A model generated the notes under the pieces. It was not told where the DNA came from, made no database searches, and saw nothing but the letters and a program-made list of their open reading frames with translations. The position numbers and the translations under genes were made by a program. From a virus, in IMG/VR virus record IMGVR_UViG_3300011116_000709, positions 1 to 64,000 of that record: a stretch of 64,000 nt of DNA, one strand, 5' to 3'. Shown one piece after another: positions 2,795 to 64,000 of the stretch; the first letter of the stretch is position 1, and each line of letters begins with the position of its first letter.

Positions 2795-4255
2795 TTACGA
2801 TGCAACACCGTGTAGGTTGTCTACGCGGAAGATGCGGTAATACTTGTTGGTGCGGGTGTTTAGACGACCACCACCATAAGTAGTACCTTCAGCGAAGGGG
2901 TTCGCAACCATGCCGTAGCGGGTCTTGAACGCCATTCTTGGCTGGAAGGTTGCAGTATCAACTGCACGCATCATTTGTAGCGGGACATAGGGGCAGTAGA
3001 AGATACCAGCATCGTATGGGCTGGTTCCCTTATATCCGACGCACACGAAGTTTCCGTTGCTAGTAGCACCAGTGTCGATGTAAGGATCAATGTAGACCTT
3101 GATCTTGCCGTTGAGTGTACCAGCAAAGGTGTTGCCAGTGTCATCAACATCAAGGTTGACATTTAGTGCAGGGCTGATGTTGAGGAATCCGCCCATTGCG
3201 AGAGCAGAAGCAACATCTGCCGAGCAGATGATGAAGTTGCCCTTGCCACGACGGGTATCCTTGGCGATCTGGTTGCACTCACGCTCAATCTGGAACATGA
3301 GTCCACGGAACTTCTCAGCACTCCAACGACCGTCAGAGTCCTGAATGAGATCGTATACACCACCGTACTTGGTAGAAGCAGCGGCGGAAATACCACCAAC
3401 TACTGTCTTGTAGTACAGGTCGCTCTGCTGTGCACCGAGTTTAGCAGTGCGGTAGATGGTACGAACCACTTCGCGGTTGATTTCAGACAGAATTTCTGTG
3501 CTGAGAATGTTGGCGAGTTCGGTTTCTGCGTCTAGACCGTGAACAGCCTTGAGGTCTTGTGCGAGTTCAACGCTGTAAGAAGCAGCGAGGGCACGGGTGT
3601 TGGCTTGTACTGCAACACGCTCAATGCTGAAGCCCATTTCGTTGGGAGTGAGATTCTCGCCAACAGAGGTCTTCATACCGACACCTTGGGTCAGACCGCT
3701 AGCAGAGGTCGGATCGTCTGAAGAACGAGAAAGCAGAGGATCAACAAATCCAAAGTTTCCGCCTAGAGCACCAGTTGCACCGCTACCAGCAGCACCAAGA
3801 GTTGCACCGCTGAATTCAGGAGCAGCAGTACCGCCTGAGAATGCAGAATCGACTTCGTTGAAGAGTGCTTCTTCACCAAAGGTGTTGTTTGCAGCAGCAG
3901 CGTACTTGCTACGCATTGCGAAAATTAGACCGGTGGGAGCAGACATTGCCTGAACGCCACAGATGTCGTAAGCCATTAGGTTTGGCATAGCACGACGAAC
4001 GAGTTGGATCAGGATTGGATCGTAACCCTTGATGTTACCTTCACCACCGATTACGGGGGACATACCACCGCTGGCAATGTTGGTTGGGGCTGCTTCGGCT
4101 AGCATCTGCTGACGAACTGCCTTCTCCTGATTCTCTAGGAGGGTGGCAGTTACAGCACGACGGTGCGGATCTGCGATTGGGGCCATATCGGCGTGATCTA
4201 GAACAGGCTTCCACTTGCGGAGAGCGTGTTCAGTTAGCATCTTGTTCTCTTCCAT
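2795..4255 (-). CDS. 23: major capsid protein gp23
   Basis: This is the HK97-fold major head protein that builds the prohead around the gp22 core. It is 486 aa (T4 gp23 is 521) and contains the family signature NTRALAASYSVELAQDLK and the following segment ending NREVVRTIYRTAKLGAQ, plus the C-terminal PRMAFKTRYGMVANPF. The N-terminal ~70 residues resemble the T4 propeptide region, and IGGE at about residues 69-72 fits the (I/L)xxE cleavage pattern of the gp21 protease; that cleavage site is inferred. The ATG at 4255 follows GGAG by 8 nt. It is flanked by scaffold gp22 upstream and a strong terminator downstream. Confidence 0.97.
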   Translation of the reverse strand: MEENKMLTEHALRKWKPVLDHADMAPIADPHRRAVTATLLENQEKAVRQQMLAEAAPTNIASGGMSPVIGGEGNIKGYDPILIQLVRRAMPNLMAYDICGVQAMSAPTGLIFAMRSKYAAAANNTFGEEALFNEVDSAFSGGTAAPEFSGATLGAAGSGATGALGGNFGFVDPLLSRSSDDPTSASGLTQGVGMKTSVGENLTPNEMGFSIERVAVQANTRALAASYSVELAQDLKAVHGLDAETELANILSTEILSEINREVVRTIYRTAKLGAQQSDLYYKTVVGGISAAASTKYGGVYDLIQDSDGRWSAEKFRGLMFQIERECNQIAKDTRRGKGNFIICSADVASALAMGGFLNISPALNVNLDVDDTGNTFAGTLNGKIKVYIDPYIDTGATSNGNFVCVGYKGTSPYDAGIFYCPYVPLQMMRAVDTATFQPRMAFKTRYGMVANPFAEGTTYGGGRLNTRTNKYYRIFRVDNLHGVAS

Positions 4256-58458: not shown

Positions 58459-58466
58459 TATTTAGG
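58459..58466 (-). promoter_or_regulatory. late promoter box for 42-aa gene
   Basis: Minus strand CCTAAATA overlapping the stop codon of the 286-aa gene, followed by TAGGAG and the ATG at 58445. Confidence 0.6.
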
Positions 58467-59322
58467 AGTTTTCTGCGTCTAATTCTTCAAAAATTGTGAT
58501 CCACTTGGGGTCTTCACCTCGACGCAGGTACGCAGCCTTTGAAAAACTCCACTCTTCTCGCTCTTGAATGCGATATCCTGCCTTGTGCTTCTTGGCGTAA
58601 CGACGAGCAGCCTCTTGATCTTCAAAATACTCGTAGTTGCCTTCGTCATCCATCGCACCCCACAGACCGCTAGAGGTTTTCCACACATCGCCTGCTTTGT
58701 GCTTGTGTGCAGCAGCGGCACTTTCACCGCTCTTCTCTTGTTCACCGCCTGCTGCCTGCTGTGGTTCGTCCTTGACATTAAATACAAACTTCTTGCCGCT
58801 GTGTGGGCCCTTGCGAAGTTGTGAGAAGAACTGCACAACCTTGTGCTTGGCGAGTTCAAGGTTGTTCTGTCCTTCACCCTTCTTGAAACGCATGAGAACT
58901 TTACCAATTCCAGCACTTTCGTTCGTGCCGATATAGTAAAAGTCCTGATCGTTCTTGTACATCACCGAGTGTTGCTTGTAGTGGCGACCCAACTTGACGA
59001 TTTCTTCCTTTTTGATGTTGGGAATGAGCAGACTCAATTCCTCAACAACACCACCTTCTTCTTGGTAGCCGCCCTTCATCTCAATATAACCGTATCCCAT
59101 GTCGCGGACACGCTTCTTGAGGTCATCGTGGAGTTTCTTGTTCTCTTCGCGTGAGTTTTCACCACGGAAAGCACTCACAATACCAAAATCCTTGCTGTCG
59201 TCTTCCACATACTGGAAAACGCGAGACAGTTTGGCTTCAATTAGTGGAGTTTCGGTCGCGTTTTTGCGATCAAGCCACTCGTTTAGTCCGTTTTGGTCAA
59301 GAAATTGTGAAAACTTCTTCAT
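58462..59322 (-). CDS. DUF3293-like protein, 286 aa
   Basis: Residues ~45-140 resemble the DUF3293 type: FGIVSAFRGENSREENKKLH, a DLKKRVRDMGYGYIEMKGGY segment, VVEELSLLIPNIKKEE and LGRHYKQHSVMYKND. A charged Ala/Lys-rich linker follows (about 190-215), then a small C-terminal domain with aromatic residues (DVWKTSSGLWGAMDDEGNYE, RIQEREEWSFSKAAYL). The function of the family is unknown to me. ATG at 59322 with AGAAGGA upstream; a late box is further upstream. It overlaps the deaminase-fold gene by 26 nt. Confidence 0.7.
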   Translation of the reverse strand: MKKFSQFLDQNGLNEWLDRKNATETPLIEAKLSRVFQYVEDDSKDFGIVSAFRGENSREENKKLHDDLKKRVRDMGYGYIEMKGGYQEEGGVVEELSLLIPNIKKEEIVKLGRHYKQHSVMYKNDQDFYYIGTNESAGIGKVLMRFKKGEGQNNLELAKHKVVQFFSQLRKGPHSGKKFVFNVKDEPQQAAGGEQEKSGESAAAAHKHKAGDVWKTSSGLWGAMDDEGNYEYFEDQEAARRYAKKHKAGYRIQEREEWSFSKAAYLRRGEDPKWITIFEELDAENS

Positions 59323-60679: not shown

Positions 60680-61672
60680 TCAAATAGTCTCGGCATTATG
60701 TGAGAAACGAATATCGTGAAGTTCAGGAATATTACCGTATGACAATTCTTTAGCCAAATACATTTTGAATCCACCCAAATCATTGAATTGGACTATTTCA
60801 CCGTTGTGAATTAGTTTAAACACACCAACCCGAGACAGCACATCACACTTGTTGATGATTAGTTCAGAACAACCTGACAACTTAATTGCTGAAATCAACT
60901 TGTCTAGATTCAGCCAGTTCGCAAGCCGCTTTCGCCCTGTGGTTGTGCCGTATTCGCCACCCTCGCGGATAAGTGCGTCAATCTGCGGGTCTTCCCAAAG
61001 GGTTTCGGGGAACAGAGGATCGGTTCCGCTCTTGGTGTCGTATGCTTTGGCAACACCAATCAGCCTGTTCAGTTTTCTTGGGGAAAAGCCAATAGAACAA
61101 GCCCCGTAAGGCATAGTAGAACTGCTAGTAACATACGGGTAATCTCCGTGATCTATGTCTAGCCAAACACTCTGTGCTCCTTCACACAAGATGTGTCCGT
61201 CCAACTCTCCGTCCCACAACCAATCAGAAATGAAATACTCCGCTGCTCGCCGTCCGCAACGCAGCATCTTGTCTGCGTAACACGGGGCAATTCCTTGCTT
61301 GGTTGTTCCTAGATGAGACAGGTTCTTGGTGTCGTAATCAATATGTGCAGCAGTAATGATATGAGCCGCAGGTGAAATCTTGACAAGGCTGGTATCAAAA
61401 CCTTCACTACGGAGGTAGCGAATCTCTTCAAAAAACTTATCGGTGTTAATCACACAGCATGGTCCAATCAAACACCGCTTGCCTGCAAAAATTCCTGAAG
61501 GGATGATATGGGTCTTGTGCTTCTTGCCGTTCACCCATACGGTGTGCCCTGCGTTTGGGCCGCCGTTCCAACGACACACCCAATCGTATCGGGGAGCCAT
61601 TGCAGCAGACACCTTTCCCTTGCCTTCGTCACCCCATGCCAAACCGTACACCACATCAACGCTTTGAATCAT
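60680..61672 (-). CDS. purA: adenylosuccinate synthetase family enzyme (PurA/PurZ type)
   Basis: Joins aspartate to IMP with GTP to make adenylosuccinate; phage relatives (PurZ) act on dGMP to make diaminopurine. At 330 aa it is short like archaeal PurA and phage PurZ (bacterial PurA is about 430), but complete. Visible motifs: WGDEGKGK with the catalytic Asp (D15), NAGHT with catalytic His (H43), GTTKQGIAPCYADK, an EGAQSVWLDIDHGDYPYVTS segment, EYGTTTGRKR, and the nucleotide motif INKCD (NKxD, guanine type). Retention of Asp and NKxD fits a GTP-using PurA or PurZ0-like enzyme rather than ATP-using PurZ. The start overlaps the upstream gene as ATGA. Confidence 0.93.
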   Translation of the reverse strand: MIQSVDVVYGLAWGDEGKGKVSAAMAPRYDWVCRWNGGPNAGHTVWVNGKKHKTHIIPSGIFAGKRCLIGPCCVINTDKFFEEIRYLRSEGFDTSLVKISPAAHIITAAHIDYDTKNLSHLGTTKQGIAPCYADKMLRCGRRAAEYFISDWLWDGELDGHILCEGAQSVWLDIDHGDYPYVTSSSTMPYGACSIGFSPRKLNRLIGVAKAYDTKSGTDPLFPETLWEDPQIDALIREGGEYGTTTGRKRLANWLNLDKLISAIKLSGCSELIINKCDVLSRVGVFKLIHNGEIVQFNDLGGFKMYLAKELSYGNIPELHDIRFSHNAETI

Positions 61673-61923
61673 TGTAGCCCCAATTCTTCGTCTAGTTGTG
61701 CGAGGCGGTCAAGTGCTTCCAATCTTTTGCGAAGTTCGTCGTTCTTGTCTGCTACCTTTTCGCACACATGACAACTGCCCTCAAAACCTTCTTCAAAAGA
61801 CTTGATACGGTCTTCAAGACGAACAATCTCTGCATACGCATCAGAGATTGTGCGAATCACATCAGCAGGCAAATCTGTTCGTTTGCTCTGCTCTCGCAAG
61901 TGCATGGCTACATCATACTTCAT
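61669..61923 (-). CDS. small coiled-coil protein, 84 aa
   Basis: Charged helical protein with a CHVC motif (GSCHVCEKVADKNDELRKRL) that could bind zinc if paired in a dimer. The rest is coiled coil (AYAEIVRLEDRIKSFEEG; LEALDRLAQLDEELGL). It overlaps both neighbours by 4 nt (ATGA) and is therefore translated with purA. No known family. Confidence 0.7.
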   Translation of the reverse strand: MKYDVAMHLREQSKRTDLPADVIRTISDAYAEIVRLEDRIKSFEEGFEGSCHVCEKVADKNDELRKRLEALDRLAQLDEELGLQ

Positions 61924-62279
61924 TGCTCGTCCTCACTATCAAACTTTGGCGGTTCCGACTTCTTTACTTCAGACACAACACCATTCAAACTTTTTACAAC
62001 TTTTGATTTTGGTGTGTTAAAGCAATCCCAACCTTGATTTTCGGCATGTTCAACTGCATCAGGACTAATGTAGGCAGACTTGCCACCTTTACCTGCAACA
62101 ATCATACACACTTCACGCCGTGCCTCGTCACGCTCATTCTGCAACTGCTCACACTTTGTCACCAAATCTTCAATGTGAGAAGTAAGTTCTTCAATCGTAT
62201 CAGCGGCTTCCCGACAACGCAGTTCCACAGAACGGTCATTGTTCAAGACGCTTCGTAACCATTCAACAATATCACTCAT
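61920..62279 (-). CDS. coiled-coil protein, 119 aa
   Basis: The N-terminal ~60 residues form a helix with REAADTIEELTSHIEDLVTK and CEQLQNERDEARREV, a pattern common in small early phage proteins. The C-terminal half is polar, with NTPKSKVVKSLNGVVSEVKK and an acidic end. Function unknown. It begins just downstream of the tRNA-Lys 3' end and is coupled to the next gene (ATGA). Confidence 0.68.
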   Translation of the reverse strand: MSDIVEWLRSVLNNDRSVELRCREAADTIEELTSHIEDLVTKCEQLQNERDEARREVCMIVAGKGGKSAYISPDAVEHAENQGWDCFNTPKSKVVKSLNGVVSEVKKSEPPKFDSEDEQ

Positions 62280-62295
62280 AGTATTCTCCGTTTAG

Positions 62296-62557
62296 TGCCC
62301 CCAGCAGGACTTGAACCTGCAACCTACCGATTAACTTACCACTTCGGTTTGCACCGCCCTTACGGTTCGTGGTCTGGACTTTATCTTCATCCGTTCTGGA
62401 TGCCCGCCGTCAAGTCTCTACACCTTCCCTTTCGGGCTTGGCTCGGTATTGGGTCTTGTGACCGTCCACCGAATTTGACGGGATTCAGATATCGCATTCC
62501 TGCGAAACTGCTCCTATTATTTAAAGTCGGCTACTCTACCAATTGAGTTATGGAGGC
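62296..62557 (-). tRNA. tRNA-Lys (anticodon UUU), split by a group I intron
   Basis: Exon 1 (62557-62524): acceptor GCCTCCA, D-arm ACTC...GAGT, anticodon 5' stem GCCGA and CTT. Exon 2 (62334-62296): TTAA, 3' stem TCGGT, T-arm GCAGG/CCTGC with loop TTCAAGT, acceptor TGGGGGC, discriminator A. Joined, they give a 73-nt tRNA with a 7-nt anticodon loop CTTTTAA, anticodon UUU. CCA is not encoded. The splice sites follow from the need for a 7-nt loop and an intron ending in G. Confidence 0.9.
62335..62523 (-). other. group I intron (tRNA/IC3-like), about 189 nt
   Basis: The minus strand contains the conserved group I core. There is a P-region string ATACCGAGCCAAGCC, an R element GGTGTAGAGACTTGACGG (62424-62407) and an S element AAGATAAAGTCC (62387-62376), whose GACT and AGTC pair as P7, the guanosine site. 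These closely resemble the cyanobacterial tRNA-Leu intron core. The intron begins TAAATAATAGGAG, where GAG can pair with exon CTT including a U-G pair at the 5' splice site, and ends in G. There is no room for a homing endonuclease gene. Confidence 0.92.
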
Positions 62558-62569
62558 TGAAATCCTTTC

Positions 62570-62785
62570 TCAAAACAGACTAGGCTGTTGTGAATCGTTT
62601 TCTACACGAATGCGGACACGCAAATCGTCCAACGCATCGGTAAGACGCATAATCAAATTTTCAAGTTCCAACGCGGTGTAACTCTCCACCATCTCAATGG
62701 TGTCCACTCCGAAAACTGCCACACACGGCTTGTTACCCTTGTGAGGATTGCGAACAATCTGCGTTCTGAAATGTGTGTTGTCCAT
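62570..62785 (-). CDS. hypothetical protein, 71 aa
   Basis: Small mixed-charge protein: an N-terminal strand region (RTQIVRNPHKGNKPCVAVFG), then a helix (LELENLIMRLTDALDDLRVR) and a polar end. Not recognised. ATG at 62785 with AAGGAG upstream overlaps the end of the preceding gene (62786). It ends 13 nt before the tRNA-Lys. Confidence 0.65.
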   Translation of the reverse strand: MDNTHFRTQIVRNPHKGNKPCVAVFGVDTIEMVESYTALELENLIMRLTDALDDLRVRIRVENDSQQPSLF

Positions 62786-63037: not shown

Positions 63038-63288
63038 CGCTTGAACAGATATTTTAGTCTGCTCCAAAAGTTTTCGTATTGGGGGAAACCCATAACTCCA
63101 CGCTTCAGACTGTCCTGCCATCCACTTCCATCAGTCTCCCGCATATACTTTAGAATGCTTGCAGGAGGATACCGTCCGCTTACATCACGCCACGCATGGC
63201 ACTCGTCAGACAGGATACGAACCTGCCGCAGCAGTTCTTCCTGCCGTTGCAGCAACCGCTCTTGGCACTCGCGGTCACACAGGCACAT
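63034..63288 (-). CDS. hypothetical protein, 84 aa
   Basis: Starts [20 protein letters not shown], a Cys cluster followed by a coiled coil, then a segment with aromatic residues (YPPASILKYMRETDGSGWQD; YENFWSRLKYLFKR). Cysteines near the start may bind metal. The ATG at 63288 overlaps the GMP reductase stop as TGATG; the longer frame from 63390 lies inside that gene and is rejected. Function unknown. Confidence 0.62.
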   Translation of the reverse strand: MCLCDRECQERLLQRQEELLRQVRILSDECHAWRDVSGRYPPASILKYMRETDGSGWQDSLKRGVMGFPQYENFWSRLKYLFKR

Positions 63289-64000
63289 CAGGCTTCGTTG
63301 CCCCACACGGTGTTTAGTTGACGATTCACCCGAATGAAAGTTGTGCACTTGCTCAAATCCTTCAGACGAGACGCACCCACATAGGTGCAAGCAGAACGCA
63401 CACCGCCAAGAATCTGCTGCATCACGCCGTCCACCGAGCCGATATGGGGAACCACGACCCGCTTGCCTTCGGCTGCACGATAGGTAGCCACGCCTCCCGA
63501 ATGCTTGTTCATGGCTTCTGCGGAACTCATTCCGTAGAACACCTTGCCGTCTTCGGTGCTTTCGCCTGCCGCTTCGTCTGTGCCTGCAAACATCCCACCA
63601 ATCATCACAAAGTCCGCACCCGCTCCAAATGCCTTGGCTACATCACCGGGACAGGTGCATCCACCGTCCGACAGCACATAGCCACCTAGTCCGTGTGCGG
63701 CATCAGCACACTCCATGATGCACGACAATTGCGGGTAGCCAACACCTGCAACCTTTCGTGTCGTGCAGACTGATCCTGGACCGATCCCGATCTTGACAAT
63801 ATTTGCACCTGCCAAGATAAGGGCTTCGGTCATTTCTCGTGTCACCACATTGCCTGCAATCAGGACATGTCGTGGGAAAGTCTTGCGAACAAATTCCACA
63901 TATCGCACAAACTTTTCTGTATATCCGTTAGCCACATCAATACAAATAAATTGAATATGGCGATGGGTGTCAAGAATGTCTTGTGCCTTTTGGAGTTCAT
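63288..64000 (-). CDS. guaC: GMP reductase (5' end beyond window)
   Basis: Converts GMP to IMP with NADPH. The visible 237 residues match E. coli GuaC closely: [42 protein letters not shown] with the catalytic Cys, [78 protein letters not shown] and [11 protein letters not shown]. The YRAAEGK region and the C-terminus separate it from IMP dehydrogenase, and there is no sign of a CBS domain. The frame runs off the window edge, so about 110 N-terminal residues are missing. It lies upstream of small genes, tRNA-Lys and purA on the same strand. Confidence 0.94.

Follow-up and report, generated by a model that had tools for sequence, protein, structure and literature searches.

Group I introns, predicted to be self-splicing, occur in tRNA genes of phages. 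The stretch of DNA analysed here (64,000 nucleotides, positions 1 to 64,000 of the IMG/VR virus record IMGVR_UViG_3300011116_000709; hereafter the window) carries on its minus strand a tRNA-Lys(UUU) gene (62557-62296), which is split after U34 by 189 nt (62523-62335). An Rfam match, covariation and natural intronless alleles bear out the sequence-only reading, which had taken the insertion for a group I intron. We are highly confident that it is an IC3-like intron without an open reading frame (ORF), which is predicted to be spliced by the group I mechanism and which would spread horizontally among tRNA genes with the anticodon loop CUU/NNAA (the slash marks the insertion point). The phage had been described as T4-type. 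Indeed, PHROGs profiles for the major head protein, the portal, the tail sheath and the terminase large subunit matched with E values of 2e-60 or lower, which identifies a T4-like myovirus. The record also contains genes for an adenylosuccinate synthetase and an IMP dehydrogenase as well as four intronless tRNAs at 57.3-57.8 kb.

The intron boundaries can be read directly. The anticodon loop is CUU/UUAA with U33 and U34 preceding the cut, and the intron ends in AAG/UUAA, which places a terminal G at the 3' splice site. The splice rules that had been invoked, a U-G pair at the 5' site and a terminal G at the 3' site, hold, since the U34.G pair is invariant in 12 of 12 introns and the terminal G is seen directly. 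The exons of 34 and 39 nt add up to 73 nt up to the discriminator base and adopt the canonical tRNA fold. ARAGORN called the joined exons tRNA-Lys(ttt), and this call together with the intronless alleles of relatives confirms the split gene. To name the joined tRNA perfect was a slight overstatement because its acceptor stem and its anticodon stem each contain one G-U pair. Similarly, the intron had been considered very short; the length of 189 nt stands, yet it is ordinary for the family, whose 12 distinct viral tRNA-Lys introns measure 181-238 nt. By default, ARAGORN did not report the split gene and called only four other tRNAs of the window. When introns were allowed, it misplaced the splice sites and returned 'tRNA-Stop'. 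The features of the locus are summarised in the table. The tRNA is probably co-transcribed with the flanking ORFs because these lie on the same strand and are separated from it by only 12 and 16 nt. The downstream ORF was considered as a candidate endonuclease and rejected, as it matches no such profile. An 83-aa open frame (62295-62546, plus strand) runs antisense across the tRNA and the intron and is most likely spurious.

Table. Features of the split tRNA-Lys(UUU) locus in the window
Feature	Position	Strand	Basis
Flanking ORF (71 aa), separated from the tRNA start by 12 nt	62570-62785	-	no Pfam or PHROG match
tRNA-Lys(UUU) 5' exon, 34 nt, ends with C32 U33 U34	62524-62557	-	ARAGORN on joined exons; alleles of relatives
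Group I intron, 189 nt, no ORF	62335-62523	-	RF00028, 64.3 bits; empty site in L145; covariance model R1
Internal guide GAG, partner CUU in the exon (62526-62524), forming P1 with U34.G	62511-62513	-	invariant in 12/12
P2 hairpin	62486-62510	-	changes on both sides in 9/10 pairs
P3 5' strand CCCGUC, partner 62408-62403	62477-62482	-	covariation
P4-P5: P4 62472-62467 with 62448-62443; P5 62463-62460 with 62455-62452	62443-62472	-	12-intron alignment
P6 and P6a with GAAA loop	62422-62442	-	12-intron alignment
P7 5' strand G(A)GACU, partner 62380-62376 AGUCC; expected guanosine site	62413-62418	-	invariant in 12/12
P3 3' strand GGCGGG	62403-62408	-	covariation
P8 hairpin CAUCC/GGAUG	62388-62402	-	single-sequence fold and alignment
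P7 3' strand AGUCC	62376-62380	-	alignment
P9 ACCAC/GUGGU with inner GNRA hairpin	62338-62373	-	single-sequence fold and alignment
tRNA-Lys(UUU) 3' exon, 39 nt, starts with U35 U36 A37 A38	62296-62334	-	ARAGORN on joined exons; alleles of relatives
Flanking ORF (119 aa), separated from the tRNA end by 16 nt; no endonuclease profile match	61920-62279	-	

The covariance search that had been proposed as a check gave a significant match to RF00028 (Intron_gpI) at 62533-62353 on the minus strand (64.3 bits, E 5.2e-14; gathering score 50), which is the sole group I match of the Rfam search in the whole 67,972-base record. For evaluating the fold, the 12 distinct viral tRNA-Lys introns were aligned by sequence only. 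Across this alignment, 97.0% of the cells in P1-P9 and the exon anticodon stem are paired, and 28 pairs show changes on both sides. Shuffled controls reached a mean of 83.3% (0 of 500 were as high as the real value), and sliding the structure by 1-3 columns reduced pairing to 30-42%. Compensatory changes were found in P2, P3, P5, P8 and the inner P9 hairpin. P1 (including U34.G) and P7 are invariant in all 12 introns and P4 is mostly so; lacking variation, P1 and P7 are consistent with the fold and count neither for nor against it by covariation. Thus, of the predicted architecture, P1-P9 is common to the 12 introns and P3 is backed by covariation, which is silent on the invariant P7. Together, these helices make up the P3-P8 and P4-P6 domains and the P3/P7 pseudoknot of group I introns. 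Folding the single RNA sequence recovered P1, P2, P4, P5, P8, P9 and the exon anticodon stem (z -2.4). An alternative register for P3 (CCGUCA with UGACGG) was rejected in favour of the one proposed by RNAalifold, which fits all 12 sequences. Furthermore, a covariance model built from the alignment (R1) detected the intron, at E values of 1e-11 or lower, in three phage loci (L006, L202 and L203).

The group I introns of T4-type phages belong to subgroup IA2 and are typically accompanied by endonuclease genes. In the window intron, only 4 nt lie between P7 and the 3' strand of P3; therefore, P7.1 and P7.2, which characterise this position in IA introns including IA2, are absent. P5 is a plain 4-bp hairpin, and there is no P5abc. 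Group IC3 introns are known from the cyanobacterial tRNA-Leu(UAA), where the insertion follows U34, from tRNA-Ile(CAU) of Azoarcus and from tRNA-Arg(CCU) of Agrobacterium; these introns are small, mostly ORF-less and located in the anticodon loop. The window intron shares the tRNA anticodon-loop site, the small size and the absence of P5abc, P7.1 and P7.2 with IC3 introns. By location, size and helix traits it may thus be classified as IC3-like, the Rfam match being one to the general group I model. It differs from the bacterial and plastid IC3 introns in that it resides in a phage gene for tRNA-Lys(UUU) and is present or absent in near-identical phages. Like the introns in td, nrdB and nrdD, it is a group I intron of a T4-like phage. 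However, those lie in protein genes (PMC3984707; PMC3706429), while that of the window lies in a tRNA gene and has no ORF.

When IMG/VR was scanned using the window's synthetase protein, 57 related loci were obtained. The nearest relative, L145, is syntenic, has a 98% identical synthetase and carries the same tRNA-Lys without the intron, the exons being joined exactly at the predicted splice point. The tRNA-Lys genes of L146 and L149 are likewise intronless, with their exons meeting at precisely this point, and R1 found no intron in L145, L146 or L149. The intron is present in L148 (same contig as L010; synthetase 84% identical), where it is 196 nt long and 94% identical to that of the window. 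L084 and L135, which are 84- and 119-kb contigs with related synthetase genes, contain 185-nt tRNA-Lys introns (88-89% identical). The empty site in L145 and the intron-bearing relatives thus put the intron boundaries on firm ground and show that the insertion was not created by misassembly of a single contig. In L147, no tRNA-Lys was found near the synthetase gene.

The intron belongs to a family that is widespread in phage tRNA genes. A first IMG/VR pattern requiring the exact intron start of the window had no matches, and loosened patterns for the core and for the tRNA-Lys 3' junction matched at least 120 and at least 16 stretches, respectively; the contigs with Lys introns are up to 381 kb long. 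Since the collecting patterns were made from the window sequence, the sampled diversity is biased towards its intron. Across all collected loci, introns were resolved using the splice rules and ARAGORN on the joined exons; ARAGORN's own intron calls were rejected because of wrong anticodons (Tyr, Ser, SeC, Val). At least 61 distinct introns were resolved, of which 46 interrupt tRNA-Leu(UAA), 11 tRNA-Lys(UUU), three tRNA-Thr(UGU) and one tRNA-Arg(UCU). All 61 are inserted after U34 behind a 5' exon ending in UU, which in nearly all cases is CUU. The viral tRNA-Leu(UAA) introns at this position belong to the same sequence family as the intron of the window. Moreover, in L011, the 3' half of the tRNA shares 89-98% identity with tRNA-Leu regions from Synechococcus phages and cyanophages. 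Interrupted tRNA-Leu(UAA) genes were also detected in three GenBank phages, namely the huge phages LR756501 and LR756511 and the cultured Agrobacterium phage Atu_ph07. As in the window, the tRNA is split in the anticodon loop; the introns, however, lie in tRNA-Leu, are about 205-700 nt long and none is annotated. All three are matched by R1. The group I-like intron of Atu_ph07 comprises 278 nt (L202:1495-1856; MF403008.1, about 112,927-113,228, minus strand), and only a hypothetical protein is annotated there. The Rfam search at E values of up to 1 did not detect this intron, whereas R1 does.

The same ribozyme family has moved between genes. The intron of L068 (1572-1756) interrupts a tRNA-Leu(UAA) whose variable arm is long, and that of L136 (10287-10467) interrupts a tRNA-Lys(UUU). 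Over their last 150 nt, the two are identical (150/150), and we conclude from this that introns move between different tRNA genes. When mapped on a tree built from 67 introns, the Lys label requires seven changes, at least four of which are forced by well-supported (starred) branches. The flanks of the window intron are of mixed affinity. Between 50 and 650 bp upstream of the splice site, the window shows 87-97% identity to the intronless L145 and 0-76% to the intron-bearing L148. By contrast, its tRNA exons share 100% identity with L148 and 92-97% with L145, in a short block with nine differences in all. To judge from the sequences, this pattern agrees with an L145-like genome having received the intron cassette through transfer of a short tract.

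It can be envisaged how splicing would proceed. In the precursor, the exons would be held together through the anticodon stem (GCCGA with UCGGU), and the internal guide GAG would pair with C32-U33-U34, giving a U.G wobble at the 5' splice site. By analogy with other group I introns, a guanosine bound at P7 would attack after U34, and the freed U34 would attack after the terminal G, thereby joining CUU to UUAA and yielding a functional tRNA-Lys. On this analysis, the intron RNA should splice itself out. Its presence is probably nearly neutral for the phage, given that near relatives lack it. Spread among tRNA genes with a CUU/NNAA loop (Leu-UAA, Lys-UUU, Thr-UGU and Arg-UCU) could be achieved in two ways. 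A free-standing HNH endonuclease might cut the target in trans, with the intron being copied during repair (collaborative homing), or guide-directed reverse splicing might be followed by recombination. The 189-nt intron contains no homing endonuclease ORF, the sole listed frame across it being antisense, and the profiles GIY-YIG, HNH, HNH_3 and LAGLIDADG_3 have no match in the 67,972-base record, which is possibly a fragment. HNH genes are present near the intron-bearing tRNA in L020, L068, L130 and L135.

Other explanations were weighed against this reading. There is next to no probability that the insertion is unrelated to group I introns and arose by chance or is removed by proteins: nothing was found in favour of such an origin, and the Rfam match, the empty sites, the covariation and the R1 results contradict it. 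It is also very unlikely that the intron is a dead remnant, with splicing lost and the tRNA-Lys reduced to a pseudogene. The intronless relatives and the missing tRNA-Lys near the synthetase gene of L147 would suit such a decay, but P1, P7 and most of P4 are invariant, compensatory changes have been kept across the 12 introns, and both exons are intact and identical to those of L148. We regard it as highly improbable that the intron is kept for a benefit, for example because it masks the anticodon loop of tRNA-Lys(UUU) until splicing from nucleases that cut at U34, such as PrrC. Phage tRNAs are known as targets and as counter-measures in anticodon-nuclease defence (PMC10264068), and the intron sits precisely at U34. 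However, such masking would not protect the mature tRNA, near relatives are intronless, and most introns of the family interrupt tRNA-Leu. No T4-type RNA ligase was found, in a search in which no control was detected either.

The possibility that the intron is old in the lineage, with losses in L145, L146 and L149, and not a recent acquisition of the phage of the window, deserves more attention, even though we consider it the unlikely course of events. Parsimony cannot separate gain from loss, and L148, L084 and L135, all of which have related synthetase genes, possess tRNA-Lys introns. On the other hand, an L145-like backbone is combined in the window with an L148-like tRNA cassette, and Lys introns arise several times in the tree, both of which favour recent gain by transfer. 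A more far-reaching proposal holds that IC3-like tRNA introns have in phages a main reservoir and means of transport, and that they move among Leu, Lys, Thr and Arg genes at CUU/NNAA via reverse splicing or trans-acting endonucleases and are exchanged with bacterial tRNA genes. This generalisation appears doubtful to us at present. When 84,980 bacterial and archaeal species, each represented by a single genome, were searched with the tRNA-Lys junction pattern, four contigs of metagenome-assembled genomes (MAGs) matched; these four bacterial and the 16 viral matches permit no comparison of rates because the pattern is virus-derived and the collections differ. Three of the four contigs (L141, L142 and L143; Bacteroidetes and Poribacteria) resolve as introns in tRNA-Lys(UUU) that share the insertion point and the match to the intron model with the window but are longer (315-327 nt). 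In the tree, they group with the viral L129, across a starred branch from the family of the window.

According to a review, the phage introns observed to date all resided in protein-coding genes, despite the many tRNA genes of phages (Hausner et al. 2014; PMC3984707). Recently, 'intronic sequences in tRNAs' of unnamed class have been mentioned for jumbo phages in a 2026 paper (PMC13037316). Some tRNAs with group I introns have been noted in genomes completed from metagenomes (PMC8172020), and putative group I introns occur in tRNA-Leu(UAA) and tRNA-Arg(UCU) of the giant sulfur bacteria BOGUAY and Thiomargarita (PMC4853749). The latter have tRNA identities in common with part of the viral set; they are chromosomal and tRNA-Lys is not mentioned. 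Thus, the ribozyme class is known, and its location in phage tRNA genes appears, provisionally, to be undescribed in the open-licence literature. The sequence-only reading had called a tRNA intron in such a phage rare or undescribed. The second term fits the open-licence literature searched so far; rarity is not supported because the two IMG/VR scans yielded at least dozens of phage contigs. Phage tRNA counts are probably too low, as default ARAGORN misses the gene of the window and Rfam misses the intron of Atu_ph07. The alleles with and without the intron that occur naturally within one T4-like lineage and the 150-nt part shared by Leu and Lys introns make the spread of tRNA introns between lineages directly testable, and the cultured phage Atu_ph07 could serve as a laboratory model for phage tRNA introns.

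Several further observations were made. In L003, L080, L092, L124, L140 and L203, at least two matches to the intron model lie within about 1 kb each; possibly, the introns are arranged in tandem or have taken up a gene. Members of the same family were found in Pelagibacter phage HTVC120P and in phage KT997847 (L002:2460-2679; L003:2444-2657 and 3158-3338), where they lie between pieces annotated as separate capsid proteins, which probably represent one intron-split gene. Moreover, L008 (2910-3146) and over 1,200 plasmid records from E. coli, Klebsiella and others contain an apparent 5' portion of a tRNA-Leu(UAA) that includes an IC3-like intron and is truncated beside an IS6-family transposase. 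In the window (60680-61672 and 63288-63998), the synthetase matches the PHROG '2-aminooxy adenylosuccinate synthetase' and the IMP dehydrogenase gene lies nearby, a combination that can point to modified adenine in phage DNA. Finally, a 286-aa protein encoded at 58462-59322 has a match to the S-adenosylmethionine lyase domain (E 2e-11).
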